The translations under genes and the position numbers were made by a program. DNA of 64,000 nt from Gordius sp. MW1 (Eukaryota > Nematomorpha > Gordioida > Gordea > Gordiidae), in assembly GCA_964036665.1 (NCBI GenBank), contig OZ038530.1, positions 16,576,001-16,640,000 on the forward strand, given 5' to 3'. The notes below the pieces were generated by a model, which saw only the letters and a program-made list of their open reading frames with translations, made no database searches and had not been told where the DNA came from. This document shows positions 10,230 to 54,263 of this stretch, piece after piece. Positions within the stretch are counted from its first letter, which is position 1; every line of letters starts with the position of its first letter.

Positions 10230-12697
10230 TTAATTGCTATGCAATTTATGGGCTCGTTTTTGGTTGTCCGTTGATGTCCGTTGATGTCCTCCCTATCTAT
10301 TTGCATTGGGTATATTAGGTTATCGATTTTTTAAATTAATGCATGAGAAAGAGGTGCCCCACCCCTCATCTCTATCTCCCTCGCTGTGTTATTTTTTAAA
10401 TTAAGAGGTGTCCCACCCCTCATCTCTATCTCCCTCGCTTTCGGGCGTGGTCGGGTTTTAATTGCTACGTTAAATTAATGCATAAGTATATCTATTCGTT
10501 TTTGAATTGGGTAACATTGATATTAATTGCTATAATTACCCCACTACAAGGGTTTGGGTTAGAATCTCGGAGTTTTTTTAGACTCTTATGATTGTTCTTG
10601 TTACTACCATTGATAATAAGACTTTTTGGCCGTCTGCTGGCTGCTGACCAATGAAATAATGACCATTGGCCAAAATGCGAATCCAAGTTTCTTTTTTTTG
10701 ACTATTAAGATTGTTCCTGTTACTACCATTGCTAATACGACTTTTCGGCCGTCCATTGGCTGCTGACCGATGGAAAAAATGACCATTGGCCAAAATGTGA
10801 ATCCAAGTTAATTTTTCGTTTTTTTTGATTATTATGATTGTTCCTGTTACTACCATTGCTATTATGACTTTTTGGCCGTCTGCTGGCTGCTGACCGATGG
10901 AAAAAATGACCATTGGCCAAAATGTGATTCCAAGTTTTTTTTTCGTTTTTTTTTGATGATTGTTCCTGTTACTACCATTGCTATTATGACTTTTTGGCCG
11001 TCCGCTGGCTGCTGACCGATGGAAAAAATGACCATTGGCCAAAATGTGAATCCAAGTTTATTTTTTCGTTTTAGTTTTGACTATTATGATTGTTCCTGTT
11101 ACTACCATTGCTATTATGACTTTTTGGCCGTCTGCTGGCTGCTGACCAATGAAAAAAATGACCATTGGCCAAAATGTGAATCCAAGTTTATTTTTTCGTT
11201 TTTTTTTGATTATTATGATTGTTCCTGTTACTACCATTGCTATTATGACTTTTTGGCCGTCCGCTGGCTGCTGACCGATGGAAAAAATGACCATTGGCCA
11301 AAATGTGATTCCAAGTTTTTTTTTCGTTTTAGTTTTGACTATTACGATTGTTCTTGTTACTATCATTGATGATAAGACTTTTTGGCCGTCCGCTGGCTGC
11401 TGACCAATGAAAAAAATGACCATTGGCTAAAATGTGAATCCGAGTTTATTTTTTCGTTTTTTTTGATTATTATGATTGTTCCTGTTACTACCATTGCTAT
11501 TATGACTTTTTGGCCGTCCGCTGGCTGCTGACCGATGGAAAAAATGACCATTGGCCAAAATGTGATTCCAAGTTTTTTTTTCGTTTTAGTTTTGACTATT
11601 ACGATTGTTCTTGTTACTATCATTGATAATAAGACTTTTTGGCCGTCCGCTGGCTGCTGACCAATGAAAAAAATGACCATTGGCCAAAATGTGAATCCGA
11701 GTTTATTTTTTCGTTTTTTTGACTATTATGATTATTCCTGTTACTACCATTGCTATTATGACTTTTTGGCCGTCCGCTGGCTCCTGACCGATAAATGACC
11801 ATTGGCCAAAATGTGAATCGAAATTATTTTTTTCGTTTTTTTTTTGACTATTATGATTGTTCCTGTTCCTACCATTGCTATTATGACTTTTTGGCCGTCC
11901 GCTGGCTGCTGACCAATGGAATAAAATGACCATTGGCCAAAATGTGATTCAAAAATTTTTTTTTTGTTTTTTTTGACTATTAAGAATTTATATCTACTTT
12001 ACCGTGTCCTGGCTGCTGACCAATGGAATAAAATGACCATTGGCCAAAATGTGATTCGAAATTTTTTTTTTCGTTTTTTGTACTCTTATGAATTTATATC
12101 CATTTTTACCGTGTGCTGGCTGCTGACCGATGGAAAAAAATGACCATTGGCCAAAGTGAGCATTAAATTTTTTTTTCCGTTTTTTTGGCTATCATTGACT
12201 TATAGAGTATCTGTTGGTACTGACCAATGGAGAAAAAATGACCATTCGCCAAATTTTTGATTTTTTTAATTAAAAATTGTTCAAATTCAACAAAAATTTC
12301 TCCCAACAATTCTGCAAATTCTTAACATTGTGATGTTTTATAATATAATGTTTGTTAGACCCATAATCACTAAAGGCCGTAAAAACTAATGTAATACGCA
12401 ACTAGATGCAAACACTAAATCTAACCCTAACCCTTGCCTATATTACATTTTGCCTATATTACATTTTGCCTATAAATGGAAAATTTGTATAAATAATTAA
12501 TTAATCATTAGGCATTTAATACCCCCCTATAGGCATTCTCGCCCCTTCCCACCTTTCTCGCCCATAAATTGCATAGCAAATATGATACATTTATACGAAG
12601 TAAAGATGAGTCGTCCCCCCTTCCCTTCCCCCCTTCCTTTCTCCCCTCCCCTTCTCCCCTCCCCCTTCCCACGAGGGCCGAAGGCCCGAGTTTTTTA
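10230..12697 (+). mobile_element. Helentron-like non-autonomous element, copy A
   Basis: The 5' end is TAATTGCTATGCAATTTATG. Near the 3' end its inverse, CCCATAAATTGCATAGCAAA, occurs as a subterminal inverted repeat. Then follow a pyrimidine-rich simple stretch (CCCTTCCC repeats) and a terminal hairpin, GGGCC-GAA-GGCCC at 12675-12687, ending in a T-run. The centre is a ~127-bp minisatellite. A conserved 5' core, central tandem repeats, a microsatellite and a 3' hairpin core are the known architecture of Helentron-associated elements in invertebrates. No Rep/helicase is present. Copy B at 35862-38702 shares all parts, so the boundaries are supported by comparison. The family assignment is inference. 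Confidence 0.65.
10560..12255. repeat. Minisatellite with ~127-bp unit inside copy A
   Basis: About fourteen units follow one another. Landmarks recur in each: ATTGTTCCTGTTACTACCAT, then TTTTTGGCCGTCCGCTGGCT, then GACCATTGGCCAAAATGTGA. The GGCCG landmark occurs near 10628, 10747, 10874, 10996, 11126, 11255, 11384, 11513, 11641, 11768 and 11890. The last three or four units, after about 11940, are shorter and diverged. Because units vary little, all frames show repetitive open stretches (for example GQQPADGQKV) that are not genes. Confidence 0.9.
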
Positions 12698-22845: not shown

Positions 22846-24142
22846 CATAGACTACATAGACTGCCCATATCATATGTTCCATATGGCAAATTGTGTGTGA
22901 AATTTGCCTCCATTTTGAATAACACTACCGTCCTATATCATATAATGTGGTTTTGCGCTATGTCGTTTTCTTCGAACAGGAGAGTTAAAGAAAAAAGGAT
23001 TTGATACCATAAATAAGTAAGATATTACAAGATATACGATATTTTTAAAAAAAATTAGGTGTTAATTCATAATTGACCTTATTTGAGAGGGTACATTATA
23101 TACTTCTTTACTTTATCATTAATTCCCAAGTAACAAATTGAGTATTAATACAATTTTTATGTATTCTGATATATAATTTATTAGATTAATTTTAATATCA
23201 TTACAGCTTTAACATTTTTCATTTTTATGAAATGTGTCAATATAATGTTGTTGATATCTAACAAGTTCAATATATTTCATTCACCTTTTTAAAATATATA
23301 TTTCTTTACTTTATCATTAATTCCCAACTTACAAATTGAGCATTAATACAATATTTATGTATTCTGAAATATAATTTATTAGATTAATTTTACATGACAG
23401 TTTTAACATTTTTAATTTTTATGAAATGTGTCAATATAATGTTGTTGATATCTAACAAGTTTAATATGTTTCATTCACCTTTTTAAATTTATACTTCTTT
23501 ACTTTATCATTAATTCCCAACTAACAAATTGAGCATTAATACAATATTTATGTATTCTGATATATAATTTATTAGATTAATTTTAATATTATTACAGTTT
23601 TTACATTTTTAATTTTTATGAAATGTGTCAATATAATGTTGTTGATATCTAACAAGTTCAATATGTTTCATTCACCCTTTTAAAATATATACTTCTTTAC
23701 TTTATCATTAATTCCCAACTAAAAAATTGAGCATTAATACAATATTTATGTATTCTGATATATAATTTATTAGATTAATTTTAATATTATTACAGTTTTT
23801 ACATTTTTAATTTTTATGAAATGTGTCAATATAATTGTTGATATCTAACAAGTTCAATATGTTTCATTCACCTTTTTAAAATATATACTTCTTTACTTTA
23901 TCATTAATTCCCAACTAACAAATTGAGCATTAATACAATATTTATGTATTCTGATATATAATTTATTAGATTAATTTTAATATCATTACAGTTTTTACAT
24001 TTTTAATTATTATTGTATTTTTATAATTCATAATTGACCTTGTTTGTGAGGGTATTGAGGTATGGTATATTATGTGTAATTCAAAATGGCGGAAAAAAAC
24101 ACACACATTTTATACCGTGATGAGCAGTCTATGTAGTCTATG
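22846..24142. mobile_element. CATAGAC-family TIR element with internal satellite, 1,297 bp
   Basis: The TIRs are CATAGACTACATAGACTGC on the left and GCAGTCTATGTAGTCTATG on the right. The 8-bp target duplication GGTTGAAA is perfect (22838-22845, 24143-24150). The outer ~170 bp on the left and ~60 bp on the right match the compact copy at 53803-54263. The middle is occupied by a ~195-bp tandem repeat. No transposase is present. An 8-bp duplication fits hAT or P superfamilies; the TIR alone does not decide. Confidence 0.85.
23095..24015. repeat. Tandem repeat, ~195-bp unit, about 4.7 copies
   Basis: Each unit contains TTCTTTACTTTATCATTAAT, TGTATTCTGATATATAATTT and GAAATGTGTCAATATAATGT. Units start near 23101, 23300, 23494, 23690 and 23886 and differ by only a few changes. 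The sequence TGACACATTTCATAAAAATT, single-copy inside the sibling element at 53803-54263, is part of the unit. Confidence 0.9.
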
Positions 24143-27204: not shown

Positions 27205-30200
27205 TCATTTTGGATAGCCATATTGAGCAAATACATCGGCGCATCGTTTCCCAATATGCTCTAGCTCGAGCGGCGTCAGCTGGGAACGCCAAGCGTCAAC
27301 GAGTCGAGCGGGAGAGTGGCGCATCGTGTTAAAAGCTTCTTCTACTTCGGGTGAAGATGACGATTCAACATCCCGACTCCACAAGTAATTGACGCGAAGC
27401 TCGACGCTCGAGGTAGAGCGTCGACCTAAAAAGGCGAAGAGGCGTCGCGAGCTAGAGTTAAAATCGTTGATCATATCTTCGTATCGCACTCGGAGGAGGT
27501 AAGTTGCGGGATGGGTAGAATGCCAGCGTCGAGCGTCGGAATAGTCACGTGACATGTTGGCGCACAAGTCATAGGATATTTGCATAGACTAATAACACGA
27601 TAGACTGGTGAACAGGTGATAATTCTTTAGTAAGGGTGTGGGTCGCCATGTTTGAGGCATATATTAACGAAGAAAACGCTATTGATTTTGTTGGATAATA
27701 AAATGTCAAACTTACGTATGGAGAGTTAATCCTTTAACGTTCTCTCATTGCCTTCTTTCATCAATTTTGCAATTCATAACTGCACAATGGCGCACATTTT
27801 AAAAATTAAACTAAGGGTGTGCCTTAATAAGCGATATTGAATCTAGACTACAAAAGCAAATGGTTAAAACATAGCCGCGTCTAAATAGGAGCGTCATGTC
27901 ATTTTTAAATTTTTGCTGTGTTTTGGTTCATAGAACAACTATTTATCCTTTGAGTAAGCTTATTAATGCATATTCACATAGTAACTAAACTAAAAATGTT
28001 GTATCCGCGACAAGTGAATCACATATTTGAACAAAAAATATGGCGCCTTTGAAGTTGAATCGTGTATTAAGACGGTGCCTAAAATGGGGGCCTAAGTTGC
28101 TCAATAAATTTCGATGCACAAAACGGCTGTTCGCCAGTCTATAGTATTATTAGTCTATGAATATTACGTTAGGGTCCCAATGCAGTTGCAGGCGACTGGC
28201 GACAACGGCCCGAGGATCGCGAACTAAGTGGATAACCTTGAAGCGCACCGGCGTCTGATTTAAAGCTTTGACGCTAACGCCCTGCGCGTCGTCTAGAGCG
28301 CTTAAGTGGGTGCCTAGGTCGTGGTGGCTTACTAGCTTTATTAGCCGAAGGGTTCGATTGCGACAAATTTCGTCGAGTTGCGATACGGTCAAGTCAGCTA
28401 TTGTAGCCGGACGACATTTTAATCCTGGCAAACTTGTTTCGTCTATGGCAAATGAATAAGCTCTGTATATTTTATTTGATATTGAATGATTTTTATAAAT
28501 TATATTCATCTTCTTTAGAAGGTAGAATGCGTCCCAACGGAGCTATCCCCTGGGAGGATAGTAAGTTCCTAGCTTGGGACTTTATCTGAATTGATATCTT
28601 CGCGCCAACTAATAATAATAACCCAATTTCTTGTGCGGAAGATCGTAAAAGACTCAAATACCGAGCCTATGTTAACTATTAACGAATCTGATGAATAGTT
28701 TTTTATTTATATTATTTTATGCTCGTTTATTGTATGTCTTATGTGTCAATAAAACATTTTAACATTAAATTTTTTTTACTAATCTTGTATAAGTGCAATC
28801 ATGAGTTATTAAATATTTCAAGTGCTAATAAAAGAGGATGGGATTGAAACAAATTAAAGAACCATTTGAGATGGTTGGTCAATTTAAAAAGACTCGTGGG
28901 CAAAAAGGAGGCAGAACCATAATTTTATTAGATATAAACAATTTTTTAGATTTAAAAAGTTAACCTGCCTTATCATGCCCCAGCCTGGCTAGGTTAACCT
29001 AGAATCTTCGTAAACTATTATTACGTCTTAATTCTTTTAGAATTTGTCACAACTTCCAGTTAACCAATGAAAAGGATCGGACGCGGTCTGAGCAAACAGT
29101 TAATAGATAAAACACATCATGGGCGTAGCCAGGTTTTGAATTGGGGGGGGGGGCCAAACATTTTTTTTCGTCATTTAGGGGGGCAGGGGTGGCGGGGTGG
29201 CGGGGCTAGGCCCATGATGATGATACACTACACATTATACTAAACAAAATTTTGACACTTCTCTCTTCTCTCAGATATTAAACTGTATAACAAGCATGCA
29301 ATAATGTTGGCTGGGTTTTGTTTGGTCGACCTTTGGTTTTAGCCGACTAAACATATACAGACCAAAGGTTTTTTGGTTTATTTTTCTTAGTGGCACTTTT
29401 GGTCTGTTTATGTTTAGTCTACTAAAACCAAAGGTCGACCAAGCGAAACCCAGCCGTTTTTACAACACTAATGCAGAATGAAAATCGCTGTTCGTGCTTA
29501 AATCAAAAGGTTAAATCAATAACATTATTTAAAAGTAGTGTAGTGAAGGAACGCGTTCAATTCTTTGAAAAAATTGATGAATGGCGTTCCTTTTTTTGGT
29601 GAACTTTGAACGTGAACGCGTTCTTTTCTTTTGATGAACGCGTCCGAATTTAACGTTCGTTCAATTTTAAAAACCCTTTTTCATTTTTATTTTTATGAAA
29701 AATAATGTTAATCCGAATTTTGTAACAAAAAAGTCTTATATTTTTCAGCTGTTTTTCCTTTCTCCTATTACCTTTTCCGAAATACTTTTAACATCCATAA
29801 CGTGCAAAAGAAGATAATATTAAAGTTTATTAATTTTATATTATTAATTATATTTGGATTAATAAGTTAATATGGACAATCATAATATTATATCGTCGTC
29901 ATCTTCAGATTTTGAATATTGAAAACTAGCAGATGAATTGACATTGCCATGGCCAAAATATGATAAATATTTTTCACTCATTTCATATAAAGGACGGAAT
30001 TCAATAGCTACTAAATGTAAAAAGAATAAACTTTTAGTTTTATTGAAAAAAGGGATTGAAACCCTTAGAATTGGTAATGAAAGAACTGTCGATTCCGAAA
30101 TATCGTTTTTTTTGACGAGGAAGTAGAGGGCGGATTGGAGGATAATATTTTATCGCAATTTTTTGAAGCGAGGGACAAAACATTAAATGTTTTTAATAAT

Positions 30201-33200
30201 TTCCTGCTTTAAAAGATTTGTTTATTAAGTACAATACTCTAATCCCCTCATTTGCCCCTGTTGAGAGGGTTTAGTATAGCTTATGCTGTATTAACTGCCA
30301 AGCATTCCTGTTTACCCAACGAAAATTTTGGAAAACAATTATTATTAAAAATTGATAAGAAACATTTTTTATGAATAAAAATCTTTATATTCGCTCTATT
30401 ATATTATATTGTATTTTTAATTATATTATCGAAGTAAAACTATTATTTTTTATCATGGCTAATATATTGTGTTAAAAAATATAAGACATATATTAAATTA
30501 AAAAAAAATTTATCATAAAATTTTGAACGAACGTGTCCTTTTTTTGAAAACGAACGTGAACGTGAACGCGTTCGATTTTTTTAAAAATGTTTACAGCACT
30601 ATTTAAAAGTCATTTATAGCAAAAACGTTCATAATATACAGAGCTGTTAAGAACTAGTTCATTTTGAACTAGTTCATAGAACTAGTTCATTTTTTTCTGA
30701 ACTTAGAACTGAACTAGTTACCTTCCCAAAAATTTGAACTGTGAACTTGAACTAGTTCATTTTTTTAAGATTGAACTTGAACTTGAACTAGTTATTTTTT
30801 TTCTAATTCTGAACTTGAACTTGAACTATACAATGTAATTGAACTAGTTCATCACAAATATATTATTTAAAATAAATTTATAAGCCGAGTGTATATGCGT
30901 CAACAATTTGACGTGCATGGTCTTGTCGGTAATCATACAGACACACAGTAACCGCAAATTTTTGATTTTAAAAACACAAAATTTTTTAGAAAAGATGGAT
31001 ACCATTTCTGAAGTAGATAATAGGAACGAGGCAGCTCAATCTACCTTTTTACCTTGGCTTTCAATGGAAGAATACTTCAAATATGTATCTTCAGATAAAG
31101 ATTCATTCAAAGTTAAGTGCAAACTATGCACTAAAGTTGTGGCGGCTTCAAGAACCTCAACAGCCAATTTATGGAGACATATAAAGGTAATAAGAATAAC
31201 GTATTATAATTTATAATATAAAATCTAGGTGTCTCACTATCAAAAACATGATGAGATTAAGAAGGCTGTCAAGAATAAGGCTGGAAAAAGTTGTGAAGCT
31301 AACAAAAAGTTAACACAGACCTTAATTGACAAGCCTTTAAACCAAAATTCCCCAATGGCCATTATCAAATATATAATCAATGGTAATCAACCATTTTCGC
31401 TATGTGATGATGAGCACTTCAATGAATTGTTGAGGGCTTTTAATCCAAAAGCAAAAACAATTTGTAGGCAAACACTCACAGGGAAGGTGATGAAATTTGC
31501 TGCAAAGATGAAAGATACAGTTAGAACAAAGTTAATGGCACCCAAGTATGTATGTACAACTGCAGACTGTTGGACAGCATTTAATAAGTACTTATTAATT
31601 TCTCTAAAATTGTCAATTTATTTTTTTTGTTAGGTCATTTATTGGGGTAACAGCTCATTGGATAGACGATGAGAGTCTTAAAAGAGTTGATGCAGTTCTA
31701 GCCTGCAAATGTTTAGAGGGGAGGCACTCTTTTGATGTTATATGCAAATTCCTTACTCAAATTTACAAAGAGTACCATATTCAAAACAAAAATATCTGTA
31801 CAATTACTGACAACGGATCTAATTTCGTTAAAGCATTCAGGTACTATTTATATAATTCTTCTTTCCTAACTTTTATATAGGATTTTTAATGAAAATGATG
31901 AGATGCAGGAGGAAGTAGTATCTCTTAAGGATATACTTGATCGGGCTGGTTTAGAGGGACATAATCAAAATGATTATGATTATCTACCCAAACATAAGAG
32001 ATGTGCTTGTCACACCCTAAATCTGATTGCTACAAGTGATGTTAACAAGCTTTTGAAAAACAATAATGCGTTTACTAAATTATATAATTCTTCATTCTGT
32101 AAGTGCCAGGCACTTTGGAACCTCAATAGCAGATCCACATTATCGGCACAAACCATACGTAACCGTTTTGGGCGTAATATACCCTACCCTGTAGTAACTA
32201 GATGGAATTCAACATTTGATTCCATCTCTGTTATAATAAAAATGATTCAAAATAAGCCTAGTGATTTTCATACTCTCTGTGATGAATTGAGGCTTGAAAG
32301 GCTTTCTTTGGAAGAATCAAATTTTTTACAGGAATATCACTTAGTGAGTCATTATTTTAAATTTATTTAATTTTTTTAAGGTAATGGAGCCACTTGCTAA
32401 GGCCCTTGAAATTTTGCAGGGGCAAACATACATGGATATGGCTTATTATACACCTACCATAAGCCAGATTCAGTTATGTCTGCAGAATATGGTAAACTTA
32501 AAATGGGCTCAACCATTAAAAGATGCTATTTTGAAAGGAATAAACATCAGGTATCAAATATAAATGGATTCTAATATATAAATCATATGGTTTTAAGATT
32601 TCCTGATCTCTATGATGAGGAAAATATTATTGCAGCTGTCCTGCATCCAATTTTTAAGACAGACTGGGCTTGGATCCGGTCACCAGAAAATGTGGAGGAA
32701 AGGTCCAGAATCATAAAAGCAATAAATTTACTAGTGCCTCAAACAACTGAAAATATGGAGGTGCATGATACACAGAATGGTTTAGATTTTTTTGATATAA
32801 TACGTGAGAATTCTAATAAAGACAATTGAAGACTATATTAAATTAAATAATACCTCATTCGATGTATTCGATGAATTTCCCAATCTAAAGCAAATTTTTA
32901 TAAAATTTAATGTTTGCCTCCCATCTAGTGCTCCAGTTGAAAGGCTTTTCAGTCTGGGAAAGCTTATATTTGGAGATAAACGTACTTGTTTATTAAACGA
33001 TAATTTTGAGAACAATATTTTATTAAAGTCCAATGGACATCTACTTTCACATGATTTTTATTGTAAATTATAATTGTATATTGTTTGTAATAAAGATTTT
33101 AAACATTGTATGGTTGATGATTTTGCTATATATAAATATTTCCTTAAATTAGATTTTCAAATATATAATAAACTATGAAATTTATTTAAAATTTTGGATA

Positions 33201-35664
33201 GCTCTCAAAAAAACTGATTTTAATTTAGGAATCATTGCCTAAATTAAAACTTTATCATATTTAAAAAAATGAACTGAACTTTGAACTGAACTTTAACTAG
33301 TTATTTTTGTAAAATTGAACTATTAACTTGAACTAGTTACATTTTTTCCTACATGAACTTGAACTTGAACTAGTTACTTTTGAAAAAAAAATGAACTTTA
33401 ACTTGAACTAATGATTTTCTCAAATTGAACTATGAACTTGAACTAGTTCGTAACATAGATGAACTTTAACAGCTCTGATAATATAGATAGATCATCTTAA
33501 TATAGCTAAGGGGATGCAGTGTCTTTCCCCCCATCCTTTAACATATCCTACATTTTTGTGTATGACGCCAGGTGGGGGTCGTAGATAGCTCAAATCCGAA
33601 TTAATACAACTGTGAAGGTGTACAATTGTAGTAATTATCTAATTTTCCCCAAAAATAGGATATAGGAGTCTAAAGAGGAAACGCTAGGGGGTCAGATTAT
33701 AAAAAGTGACTCGGATGTGTTTTTTAAAAGATTCAAAACTTTAAACAGTTACAGCTTAGTGTTAAAGGTAAATCGCAGCATAATGATCTTTTTATTCAAC
33801 TAAGTAGCCATAATTTAATATCAAAAGCAATCAAAAATACATCCCCCAATCATTATCCCTCACATTTTTAAAAGGTTCTGGACCAGAGATGATAAAAGAC
33901 CGAATCTTCCGCTACGCGACCATACCCGCCAAGCCCACGCGGGTCGGGCAACTAACGTTCATTCAAATTTTCGGCGTGCAATTCAAGCTTAATGAGATTT
34001 TTCATATAATGCAAAATTTTGTTTTCGTGTTTTATATTGTCACTTTTAAAATTGATGTGTAATATTTCGTGGATTTATCCAAAAGCAAAGCTTTCAATAA
34101 ATTTTTTTTAAAAATTCAACAAAATTATCACTAAAAATTAAATAATCATCTTTTCAAGCCGGGCAGTTTTGACAGCTCTAATGATTTGGGCATGTGGCCG
34201 GGCGGACACTTAGAAGGGTTGTAGCGGGACCGTGCGGTCAACTTGGTAATAAAATTGGATCAGGCCGAGTTCGAACAGAAAAAATTCGAAAAGATCTGAC
34301 CTCTACCTTGAACCAAAATAGGGATCTAACCCGCCCAAAGCAGTATGGAGTGTGTTAATTAAGTTTACCTAGCGGAGCGACGTACGGCGAGTCAGCTGTA
34401 CAAATGGCGGGTTGCGTAGTCACGTGATCCATGACCGCGGACGATCGAGTTAGCATGTGAAGTCGGGGGTCGGTCATGTACGCGAACCAGCGGTTACCGA
34501 GTCGGGCGAAATCGCAGTCAGCTGCGGCGGTCAGGAGGGTACGGAGGACGGAACGATACGAATTTGAATTGGACGTCCAAGATGACGCCCGGAGAAATAG
34601 GTGAGGGTTGGTCGCCTCGTGCAGGTATAGGGTATCGGGGTGGTGATCTAGCACGTCGGCGAGAAAGGTGGAACCCGAACGCGCGTGTGCGAACAAAATG
34701 GCCACCGTCACGTCACGTGATGGGTCGCGTTGGGGAAGGAGGGGCGGCAAAATGGCTAAAACAATTGGAAGCGGTTGATTTATACTAACAAGCTAGGGGT
34801 AAATGCCCCCATAGACTAATACAATAAACTGCAAACAGCTAAACATGTTTAAGGCATTTATTAACAAAATAAACGCTTTTCACTTTGTTCAAATGTCAAA
34901 CTTACTTATGGTCAGTTGGCCAGCCCGTTATAAAAATTTACAAGTCAGGGCGTGGCCCGGGCCGGTCAAAATATTGAGTTATAGGCCCGGGTGCGGTCGC
35001 TAATTTTATTAAAAAGATTTTATTTTTTTACAATTTAGATTGTTAGTTTTTAACGATTCGAACAATATATTTATGCGTTACAAATGTTAATAATAATTAT
35101 GTGGAAAAAATAAATTATCCATTATTTCCGGTCAGACGAGTTCTTACTACAGGTTGTCTTTTTCTTAAAACCTTCCTATAAAAAATCTATTAACTGTATC
35201 GCCTTATTATTTTCCTCTATAATAAACATTGTGGACAAGATTTATTTTTAAAAACATATAAAAACCGCTAAAATATTTAGTCAACTAGACCTATTTGATT
35301 TTTCATGGTCGTGATAGCCCCGGTCTCCCCTATATATTAAAATTGTAACCAAGTGTTTAGAAAAAAAGATAATAATCAATTAAAACATGGGCGTAGCCAG
35401 GGGATCCAAAAATTTGTTGAAATATATTAAAAATATGGCTAAAATTTCAAAAAATGATCCTTTTGCCCCTTCCTAAATCATTATTTTCCCCCCCCCCCCA
35501 ATCCCAATGCTGGCTACGCTCATGAATTAAACTATCAATTAAAGCTCACCCAATTTGTGGTAAAATAAGTACAAGTTGAGAATGACGATCGCGGCAATAA
35601 CACCGGTGATAACTTTGTGGCTTGTACTAGCTTTGGATCGCCGAATCAGATCTTTGAAACGCAT
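27205..35664 (-). CDS. Carbohydrate 6-O-sulfotransferase (CHST family), four exons
   Basis: Exons: 35550-35664, 34369-34755, 28168-28442 and 27205-27588. All have GT/AG borders and matching phases, giving 386 residues, the usual family length. The enzyme should transfer sulfate from PAPS to the 6-O position of a sugar in Golgi glycans. Exon 1 encodes a type II anchor: a short basic tail, then TM about residues 18-35. The 5'-phosphosulfate loop is RSGSTFL (64-70). The 3'-phosphate motif is VIHLVRDPRAVVASR (237-251). LLRVRYEDM and a C-terminal QYGYPK also fit Gal/GlcNAc/GalNAc 6-O-sulfotransferases. The exact sugar cannot be told. Exons 2-4 are markedly GC- and CpG-rich in an AT-rich region. 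Introns are 794, 5,926 and 579 bp, all loaded with mobile elements. Acceptor choice at exons 2 and 3 rests on phase. Confidence 0.85.
27583..28159. mobile_element. CATAGAC-type TIR element forming the last sulfotransferase intron
   Basis: The left TIR starts CATAGACTAATAACACGATA and the right TIR is its inverse. Over 33 bp there are three mismatches. TIRs share CATAGACTA and AGACTG with the family at 22846 and 53803. On the gene strand the intron (28167 to 27589) starts in the 8-bp flank GTAATATT and ends at TTAG inside the far TIR, so the element supplies the acceptor. The opposite flank, CAAATATC, matches the donor-side flank at 5 of 8 bases in the same codon register. A Harbinger-like MITE (27815-28079) is nested inside. 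Confidence 0.75.
27815..28079. mobile_element. Tourist-like (PIF/Harbinger) MITE nested in the intron element
   Basis: The ends are GGGTGTGCCTTAATA and TATTAAGACGGTGCC, imperfect inverted repeats, flanked by TAA on both sides (27812-27814, 28080-28082). The interior matches 2656-2925 in inverse orientation. It must have inserted after, or together with, the surrounding TIR element. Confidence 0.7.
29118..29216. mobile_element. Palindromic CATGGGCGTAGCCAGG MITE
   Basis: The left end is CATGGGCGTAGCCAGG and the right end GGCCCATG. The interior is G-runs and T-runs. No target duplication was found, unlike the copies at 35386 and 60141. It lies in the large sulfotransferase intron. Confidence 0.5.
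29309..29455. mobile_element. 147-bp hairpin MITE, GGCTGGGTTT ends
   Basis: Nearly its whole length folds on itself. GGCTGGGTTTTGTTTGGTCG on the left mirrors CGACCAAGCGAAACCCAGCC on the right, and ACCTTTGGTTTTAG mirrors CTAAAACCAAAGGT. It has no coding capacity. It lies in the large sulfotransferase intron. Confidence 0.75.
29536..30601 (+). mobile_element. Internally deleted hAT transposon, 1,066 bp (GAACGCGTTC family)
   Basis: The right end TTTACAGCACTA matches the element at 17693-19225; the left TIR is altered (TAGTGTAGTG). The target duplication TTTAAAAG is perfect (29528-29535, 30602-30609). GAACGCGTTC-type palindromes lie inside both ends. On the + strand, about 29938-30330, remnants resemble a BED-type zinc-finger start (KGRNSIATKCKK) joined to a C-terminal hAT piece (APVERV). 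The middle of the transposase is missing, so it is non-autonomous. Confidence 0.85.
30639..33477 (+). mobile_element. Nearly complete hAT transposon, 2,839 bp
   Basis: The TIRs begin CAGAGCTGTTAA and end TTAACAGCTCTG. The 8-bp target duplication ATAATATA is perfect (30631-30638, 33478-33485). GAACTAGTTC-type palindromic repeats crowd about 200 bp at each end, as is usual for hAT transposase-binding regions. One multi-exon transposase gene lies between them. It sits in the 5.9-kb sulfotransferase intron, on the strand opposite to the host gene. Confidence 0.92.
30995..33073 (+). CDS. hAT transposase, six exons
   Basis: Exons by splice sites and reading phase: 30995-31186, 31229-31587, 31634-31840, 31881-32343, 32381-32550 and 32598-33073, about 620 residues. 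Introns are 37-47 nt. Exon 1 carries a BED zinc finger (CKLCTK, later NLWRHIK). Exon 2 ends with TTADCWTAF, holding the first catalytic Asp. Exon 3 has TDNGSNFVKAF, the second Asp. Exon 4 has CACHTLNL and VTRWNSTFDS. Exon 6 has the dimerisation motif SSAPVERLFSLG. The reading frame changes once within exon 6, at about 32800-32830, where one frame ends and the next continues the family pattern. This copy is therefore probably inactive unless that is a sequencing error. An AATAAA-like site follows near 33088. Confidence 0.88.
33880..34345. repeat. GC-rich dispersed repeat fragment in a sulfotransferase intron
   Basis: CGGGTCGGGCA, CCGGGCAG and GACCGTGCGGTCAA-type motifs are scattered through AT-rich DNA, and CAGCTCTAATGA resembles hAT-like ends seen elsewhere here. 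I could not set its borders. Confidence 0.35.
34810..34925. mobile_element. Truncated CATAGACTAAT element in the first sulfotransferase intron
   Basis: It starts with CATAGACTAATA. It then shares with 27583-27735 the blocks ATGTTT-AGGCAT-TATTAAC and AAATGTCAAACTTAC-TATGG. The opposite end was not found. Its end lies 54 bp from the exon 2 acceptor at 34755. Confidence 0.55.
35312..35331. mobile_element. Solitary end of the GGGGAGACCGGGGCTA family
   Basis: GATAGCCCCGGTCTCCCC followed by TA matches the right end of the element at 17207-19369. No left end is nearby. Confidence 0.4.
35386..35524. mobile_element. Palindromic CATGGGCGTAGCCAGG MITE, 139 bp
   Basis: CATGGGCGTAGCCAGG is mirrored by CTGGCTACGCTCATG. 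The flanks AATTAAAA (35378-35385) and AATTAAAC (35525-35532) match at 7 of 8 bases, fitting a hAT-like 8-bp duplication. It lies just inside the first sulfotransferase intron, 25 bp from the donor at 35549. Confidence 0.7.
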
Positions 35665-53802: not shown

Positions 53803-54263
53803 CATAGACTACATAGACTGCTCATGTCATATATTCCATATGGCAAATTGTGTGTGAAATTTGCCGCCATTTTGATGAACAATACCGTCCTATATCACAT
53901 AATGGCGTTTTGCGCTCTGCCGTTTTTTTCGAACAGGGGAGGTAAAGAAAAAAGGTTTTGATTCCATAAATAAGTAAGATATTACTTAAGATATGATATT
54001 TTTTAAAAATTTATTATTGACACATTTCATAAAAATTAAAAATGTAAAAACTGTAATGTTATTAAAATTTTTTAAAAATATCATATATTTAGTAATATCT
54101 TACTTATTTATGGAATCAAAACCTTTTTTCTTTACCTCTCCTGTTCGAAAAAAACGGCAGAGCGCAAAACGCCATTATGTGATATAGGACGGTATTGTTC
54201 ATCAAAATGGCGGAAAAAAACACACACATTTTATACCGTGATGAGCAGTCTATGTAGTCTATG
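53803..54263. mobile_element. CATAGAC-family TIR MITE, 461 bp
   Basis: The TIRs CATAGACTACATAGACTGCT and inverse are intact. The 8-bp target duplication GGTTTTAC is perfect (53795-53802, 54264-54271). The two halves are largely complementary, so the element folds into a hairpin. It shares ends with 22846-24142. Apparent frames across it (GKLCVKFAAILMNNTVLYHI) occur in both orientations because of the palindrome and are not genes. Confidence 0.9.

Follow-up and report, generated by a model that had tools for sequence, protein, structure and literature searches.

Probable ancient gain of a sulfotransferase intron from a P-type MITE in Gordius sp. MW1

Few introns of animals have a birth that can be followed back to a named source, and a sulfotransferase gene of Gordius sp. 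MW1 raises the question of whether its third intron is one of them. The gene lies on the minus strand of the window, that is, the whole 64,000-nucleotide stretch of contig OZ038530.1 (assembly GCA_964036665.1) that was analysed. The original prediction held that this intron nearly coincides with an element bearing terminal inverted repeats (TIRs), and its coordinates hold, with an exact 12-mer at both ends and arms of 38 nt. The reading preferred here, which is considered highly probable from the sequence, is a single ancient intron gain by a P-type MITE through a known mechanism.

The sulfotransferase gene

Four exons, located through acceptor, donor and frame, join into a complete open frame of 380 amino acids, and the three introns (794, 5944 and 579 nt) are all of the GT-AG type (Table 1). 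The predicted protein matches the Pfam domains Sulfotransfer_3 (PF13469, 2.1e-18, residues 61-309) and Sulfotransfer_1 (2.6e-14), both matches span the join of exons 3 and 4, and by domain the predicted product is an animal type II (CHST-like) sulfotransferase with both exons covered. The open frame extends over 125 codons on the upstream side of this join and over 127 codons on the downstream side.

Two further transposon-like features were noted in the other introns. Intron 1 holds, at 34810-34861, the remains of a P-type MITE similar in kind to that of intron 3, about 55 nt upstream of the exon 2 acceptor and off the splice border; the lone 12-mer at 34810 was considered as the acceptor of exon 2 and rejected, the likely used acceptor being TTTTAG about 50 nt downstream. 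Intron 2 contains hAT-like transposon ORFs (31870-33070), of which the one at 32801-33070 gives a weak Dimer_Tnp_hAT match of 20.3 bits against a cut-off of 21.4.

Table 1. Predicted features of the sulfotransferase gene and of the element in intron 3 (window positions; a slash marks a splice border)
Feature	Position	Strand	Remarks
Exon 1	35550..35664	-	Start codon; hydrophobic N-terminal anchor (by inspection)
Exon 2	34369..34755	-	ARSGSTF motif, presumably 5'-PAPS-binding
Exon 3	28168..28424	-	RDPRA region, presumably 3'-PAPS-binding
Intron 3	27589..28167	-	579 nt, GT-AG; splicing predicted from frame and homology
Exon 4	27205..27588	-	Putatively transposon-derived TCTATG at start; stop codon at end
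P-type MITE	27583..28159		577 bp, or 309 bp once the nested insertion is removed
Left terminal inverted repeat	27583..27620		38 nt; gene-strand end TATTAG/TCTATG; gives acceptor and Ser-Met codons
Right terminal inverted repeat	28122..28159		38 nt; bears TAA at 28152
Target-site copy GTAATATT	28160..28167	-	First two bases are the donor GT
Opposite target-site copy CAAATATC	27575..27582	-	5/8 identical; stays coding, Gln-Ile-Ser
Nested second MITE	27815..28079		TAA duplication at 27812-27814 / 28080-28082

Anatomy of intron 3

The element carries the 12-mer CATAGACTAATA exactly at each end, and inverted arms of 38 nt that are 87% complementary are found at 27578-27615 and 28127-28164. Intron 3 consists of the 8-bp target copy and the transposon minus its final 6 nt, its borders thus lying 8 nt outside one element end and 6 nt inside the other. 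On the gene strand the order is GACCCTAAC, then GTAATATT at the intron start, the transposon, TATTAG at the intron end, and TCTATG and CAAATATC, both coding, followed by CTATGAC. In border notation exon 3 ends in GACCCTAAC/GTAATATT and exon 4 begins at TTATTAG/TCTATGCAAATATCC, and the predicted spliced join (28168/27588) leads from GACCCTAAC to TCTATGCAA. It had been proposed that the donor was borrowed from the 8-bp flank and that the acceptor TTAG lies inside the opposite TIR, with TCTATG becoming the codons for Ser-Met; the donor GT is indeed the first two bases of GTAATATT, and the acceptor and the two codons can be read directly in the border sequence.

The two flank octamers, counted anew, agree at 5 of 8 bases, the same figure as in the original prediction. 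Unrelated octamers (p = 0.28) would agree this well with a probability of 0.044, and a duplication decayed by 21% would show five or fewer matches with a probability of 0.23; taken alone, the match is a weak sign of a target duplication. The nested second MITE, which we take to be PIF/Harbinger-like from the type of its 3-bp TAA duplication, resembles at least 39 other places in the genome at 80-85% identity (best 40 candidates scored).

Splice-site choice

The splice sites of intron 3 appear to be nearly forced by the reading frame. Read onward, the frame of exon 3 stops at the TAA inside the inverted repeat, and read backward, the frame of exon 4 has its nearest in-frame stop at TAG 27591, the AG of which is the acceptor. 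Among 76 frame-restoring GT/AG pairs that bypass these stops, 28167/27589 keeps the most residues of exons 3 and 4 (212, the runner-up keeping 200). The donor AAC/GTAATA is mediocre, agreeing with the consensus at 6 of 9 positions, as do the other two donors of the gene. The GC content shifts at the intron borders, being 60% in the last 60 nt of exon 3, 52% in the 60 nt of exon 4 that follow TCTATG, 35% in the element and 32% in the window. Frame and homology predict splicing at 28167/27589.

The CATAGAC family

The terminal 12-mer occurs in 1430 exact copies in the 211.8-Mb genome, compared with 14 copies of the reversed pattern, and the element ends are therefore not a matter of chance. A sample of 94 loci (L034-L063 and L069-L132), mostly picked for a GT at positions -8/-7 of an end, was examined, and 51 copies were kept in which both ends were found and the flank octamers were alike at 6 or more of 8 bases; the other loci were left out owing to a missing partner end, weaker flanks or duplication. 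Two of the kept copies (L109 and L110) have a common flank and are not independent. A looser table of copies has 72 rows, the window copy included. The proposal of a CATAGAC family with 8-bp duplications proved sound, as the duplication is exact in 41 of the 51 kept copies, all of them preselected at 6 of 8 or better, and an assignment of the family to the P type has become possible.

This assignment is based on longer elements with CATAGAC ends (1.3-4.6 kb). A THAP domain (PF05485) lies above the Pfam cut-off in two of them, L070 (1.1e-10) and L071 (4.7e-11), the latter with an exact 8-bp duplication, and a THAP fragment below the cut-off (0.0069) is present in L072; a Pfam scan of the ORF of L043 gave no THAP match. 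The domain TNP-like_RNaseH_N has 76 matches in the genome, none of which was placed between CATAGAC ends. Membership of the P superfamily is accordingly likely on sequence grounds, short of proof since the catalytic domain is not placed between these ends. Membership of the hAT superfamily was considered and is held less likely than P on account of the THAP domains; inspection of the ORFs listed for five long elements revealed no hAT transposase, and the Pfam scan covered one ORF in each of four of these.

The ends also display a target preference. A GT is found at -8/-7 in 307 of the 1430 ends (about 21%), where about 66 (4.6%) would be expected from the dinucleotide frequencies of the window, and an AC is found at -2/-1 in 309, where again about 66 would be expected. 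The near equality of the two counts points to a palindromic GT....AC target, and hAT elements share a palindromic target preference. With such a preference acting on either strand, a donor GT beside the element would be a by-product of integration, and selection for splicing is not required to explain it.

Further remnants similar to CATAGAC subfamily B were noted in the window at 24103-24142, 53803-53876 and 54224-54263. A peptide-like repeat of the ANGHFFHRSAASGRPK type occurs in a minus-strand ORF of the window (10578-11042) and again inside the 4.6-kb CATAGAC-ended element L070, which suggests a dispersed minisatellite.

Age of the insertion and selection on the gene

The host MITE shrinks to 309 bp when the nested element is taken out together with one copy of its duplication, and the body of the host MITE resembles at least 39 other places at 71-83% identity (best 40 candidates scored). 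It agrees with the majority consensus of eight relatives at 88.3% over 307 columns with 3 gap columns, and the relatives themselves agree with that consensus at 76-87% with 7-67 gap columns. The exact 12-mer is present at both ends of the window copy and at 1 of 16 ends in the eight relatives, a contrast that is biased and was given no weight, as the window element was found through those ends. Simple membership of the window copy in subfamily A, which is young and 308 bp long, was also considered and rejected, its alignment score of 52 standing against a shuffled mean of 42 (sd 5) and a maximum of 55.5 among 200 interior shuffles. By these comparisons the window copy belongs to an older CATAGAC subfamily.

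The terminal inverted repeat arms of the window copy differ at 6 of 38 positions, which corresponds to about 0.09 changes per site per arm, a value that carries a wide error, and the distance to the consensus is about 0.127, which includes divergence preceding the insertion. In a simulation of neutral decay the coding sequence stayed free of stops in 4.3% of cases at K 0.09 and in 1.2% at K 0.127; for exons 3 and 4 alone the figure was 11% at K 0.105, a weak test. At the element's own indel ratio, which is based on three columns, about 8-12 gap columns would be expected in a neutral coding sequence, and the coding sequence shows zero frame breaks. An old insertion together with an intact frame argues for a gene that remained functional once the element had landed, presumably under selection, and continued function would require removal of the element from the mRNA.

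Paralogues and the site of insertion

The same region is read through without an intron in a paralogue at C2:5923592, which has an open frame of 356 amino acids and could be a retrocopy; the full alignment with this distant paralogue gives 23% identity. In it the two proteins share a segment, RDPR..ASR, whose end lies eight residues ahead of the join, and a cysteine shared in the following segment lies eight residues past the join, with Ser-Met counted. A weak match to PDB entry 4gox (E=0.019) has a length difference within about one residue of the join, which makes the insertion site look like a loop of variable length. A TPST-like gene on contig C5 was considered as the bearer of an old homologous intron and rejected, since its intron follows VVSRK, four residues nearer RD.RA (by eye).

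Search for further introns from CATAGAC copies

The original prediction had spoken of an introner-like gain, and a general introner role for the family is not supported: among the 51 other kept copies (from 94 loci; about 1430 ends exist) not one was found at a splice border or interrupting a recognisable host ORF. A GT stands at the place equivalent to the donor in 49 of the 51, most of which were chosen for it, and similarity to other copies reaches near both borders of intron 3 (8 nt and 6 nt), the compared places not being introns as far as is known. The search relied on exons recognisable by Pfam, and short exons or those lacking Pfam domains could escape it.

When splicing or the empty site was modelled for the 72 rows of the looser table, the frame stayed open for at least 40 codons on both sides in three: the window copy, L075 and L100. 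Neither of the latter two was accepted as a second case. The element in L075 is an insertion with an exact duplication that splits a long ORF, retroelement-like by inspection and free of Pfam matches. In L100 both flanks look by eye like further copies of repeats, the donor falls beyond the target copy and the modelled product gives no Pfam match. At L075 the joined empty site reads through, which serves as a check on the 8-bp duplication.

A one-sided test, which allows for short partner exons, found that in 12 of the 51 copies a frame of at least 60 codons runs up to the element; the ORFs concerned were scanned in 11 of the 12 (the flank of L110 being that of L109) and gave zero Pfam matches over the cut-off. 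Within 450 bp of the elements there are 164 ORFs of at least 45 residues, of which 140 were listed and nine picked by eye for Pfam. Matches over the cut-off are Kunitz (two ORFs at L086) and 3-beta-HSD (two ORFs at L101), and those below it are Mob1 (L040), a WD40-like domain (L104) and ATP-citrate lyase (L129, E=0.027); one ORF at L099 has no Pfam match and one at L129 is integrase-like. The Kunitz and 3-beta-HSD ORFs indicate that the sample of 51 is not gene-free and that at least two copies lie near clear host exons, and beside the nine picked ORFs no element end was found at a splice border. The element of L086 sits between two exon-like ORFs, and in L101 and L104 a likely start codon follows shortly after the element. 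L104 (minus strand) was examined as an intron border and rejected. Its duplication is exact, its acceptor end has decayed to TACACG, its frame meets a stop within the target copy and the element ends two bases before the ATG of the WD40-like ORF; it therefore looks to be placed 5' of the start codon.

Proposed origin and alternative explanations

According to the preferred reading, a non-autonomous MITE of the P superfamily would have entered the coding sequence of the sulfotransferase gene in the distant past and become a spliceosomal intron. Its integration would have duplicated an 8-bp target that starts with GT, matching the GT....AC preference of the family, so that the target copy supplied the donor, the inverted repeat supplied the acceptor AG, and six transposon bases came to encode Ser-Met. 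A second MITE would have inserted later inside the intron. The direction of change, a gain as opposed to an insertion into an older intron, is inferred, and it is here that one alternative bears. A MITE could have landed in a pre-existing intron, the rest of which was later lost, making the coincidence of borders only apparent. Other copies do lie between or near exons (that of L086 is flanked by the Kunitz-like ORFs, and exon-like ORFs are close to those of L040, L101 and L104), and intron 1 of the sulfotransferase gene itself holds a remnant of the same kind. Against this, intron 3 outside the element amounts to the 8-nt target copy only and the acceptor lies within the element, such that two precise deletions would be needed, and the paralogue on C2 has no intron at this position; this course of events is regarded as very improbable. 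Only slightly less improbable is that the element breaks the gene, being left unspliced so that the protein ends at the TAA of the inverted repeat, whether as a pseudogene or as a truncated isoform. The in-frame TAA agrees with such a reading, yet 125 codons past the element are still open and match the sulfotransferase domain despite an insertion old enough for the arms to differ at 6 of 38 positions.

What the family as a whole can do is a separate matter. Were CATAGAC a full introner family and the source of many introns in this genome, the acceptor-like TATTAG at each intact end, the GT at the matching place in about one fifth of the ends and the ability to work in either orientation would all be accounted for. 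This too is very unlikely, as the 51 other copies yielded no such intron, the long ORF split at L075 looks retroelement-like, and the symmetric GT and AC counts are what target preference alone predicts. A further reading, held to be improbable, is that P-type MITEs with GT....AC targets are latent introners and that CATAGAC made several introns here, intron 3 among them. If true, integration would by itself place a GT where a donor is needed, whichever strand is read, and a TIR that happens to read TATTAG would complete the intron. Every P or hAT family whose TIR contains an AG would then be pre-adapted in this way.

Observations on COX1-like sequences

In the contig that bears COX1, TGA appears to be read as tryptophan. 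Many COX1-like copies are also present in the large contigs C1, C3, C4, C5 and C8 (for example C8:2829490-2830827), one of them near full length and with the same in-frame TGA count as contig C12; these copies are either nuclear mitochondrial insertions or assembly artefacts.

Comparison with known systems

On the preferred reading of a single gain, the birth of intron 3 can be read base by base, with one site derived from the target, the other from the transposon, and residues added to the protein. It also offers a countable rule, GT from target preference and AG from the TIR, that can be checked across P and hAT families. In its mechanism, intron 3 would be another case among the transposon-made introns already known. 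In maize, the hAT element Ds, a TIR element with 8-bp duplications, is spliced out of exons through sites in the element and its flank, in recent mutant alleles; the window element differs in being of the P type and old. The introners of Aureococcus and Micromonas (Huff et al. 2016) are said to arise at a genomic scale, with the transposon giving one splice site and the target the other, a division like that in intron 3 but differing from it in scale.

Introners surveyed by Gozashti et al. 2022 (PMC9860276) resemble intron 3 in that a TIR element and its target duplication together form the intron. Those of Symbiodinium carry the 3' splice site and co-opt the 5' site from the duplication (legend to Fig. 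2B), which is 4 bp long as opposed to 8 bp for CATAGAC. The elements of Aureococcus carry both splice sites, whereas the window element carries one, and a case shown for that genus adds in-frame codons from 4 bp of the element and the 8-bp duplication (legend to Fig. 2F). According to the same source, among animals and land plants introners were found in two groups only, both of them animals; intron 3 differs in being a lone old intron of an animal gene, for which the 51 sampled copies gave zero sister introns. The main text of that source nowhere uses the terms superfamily, hAT or P element. The original prediction had taken the family and its use as an intron to be undescribed, which stands in part: a literature search on intron gain, P elements and MITEs (titles and abstract openings, among the papers listed) returned no title that deals with a P-type MITE turned intron, but the class of mechanism is already in print (PMC9860276).

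The closest likeness on the side of the transposon is found in the P-element MITEs of Anopheles gambiae (PMC1562414), which are short TIR elements with 8-bp duplications and have THAP domains in related P proteins. CATAGAC shares with them the P relationship, the small element size, the TIRs, the 8-bp duplications and the THAP domain. The passages of PMC1562414 considered here do not mention an intron made by such a MITE, whereas the MITE of the window forms a predicted intron.
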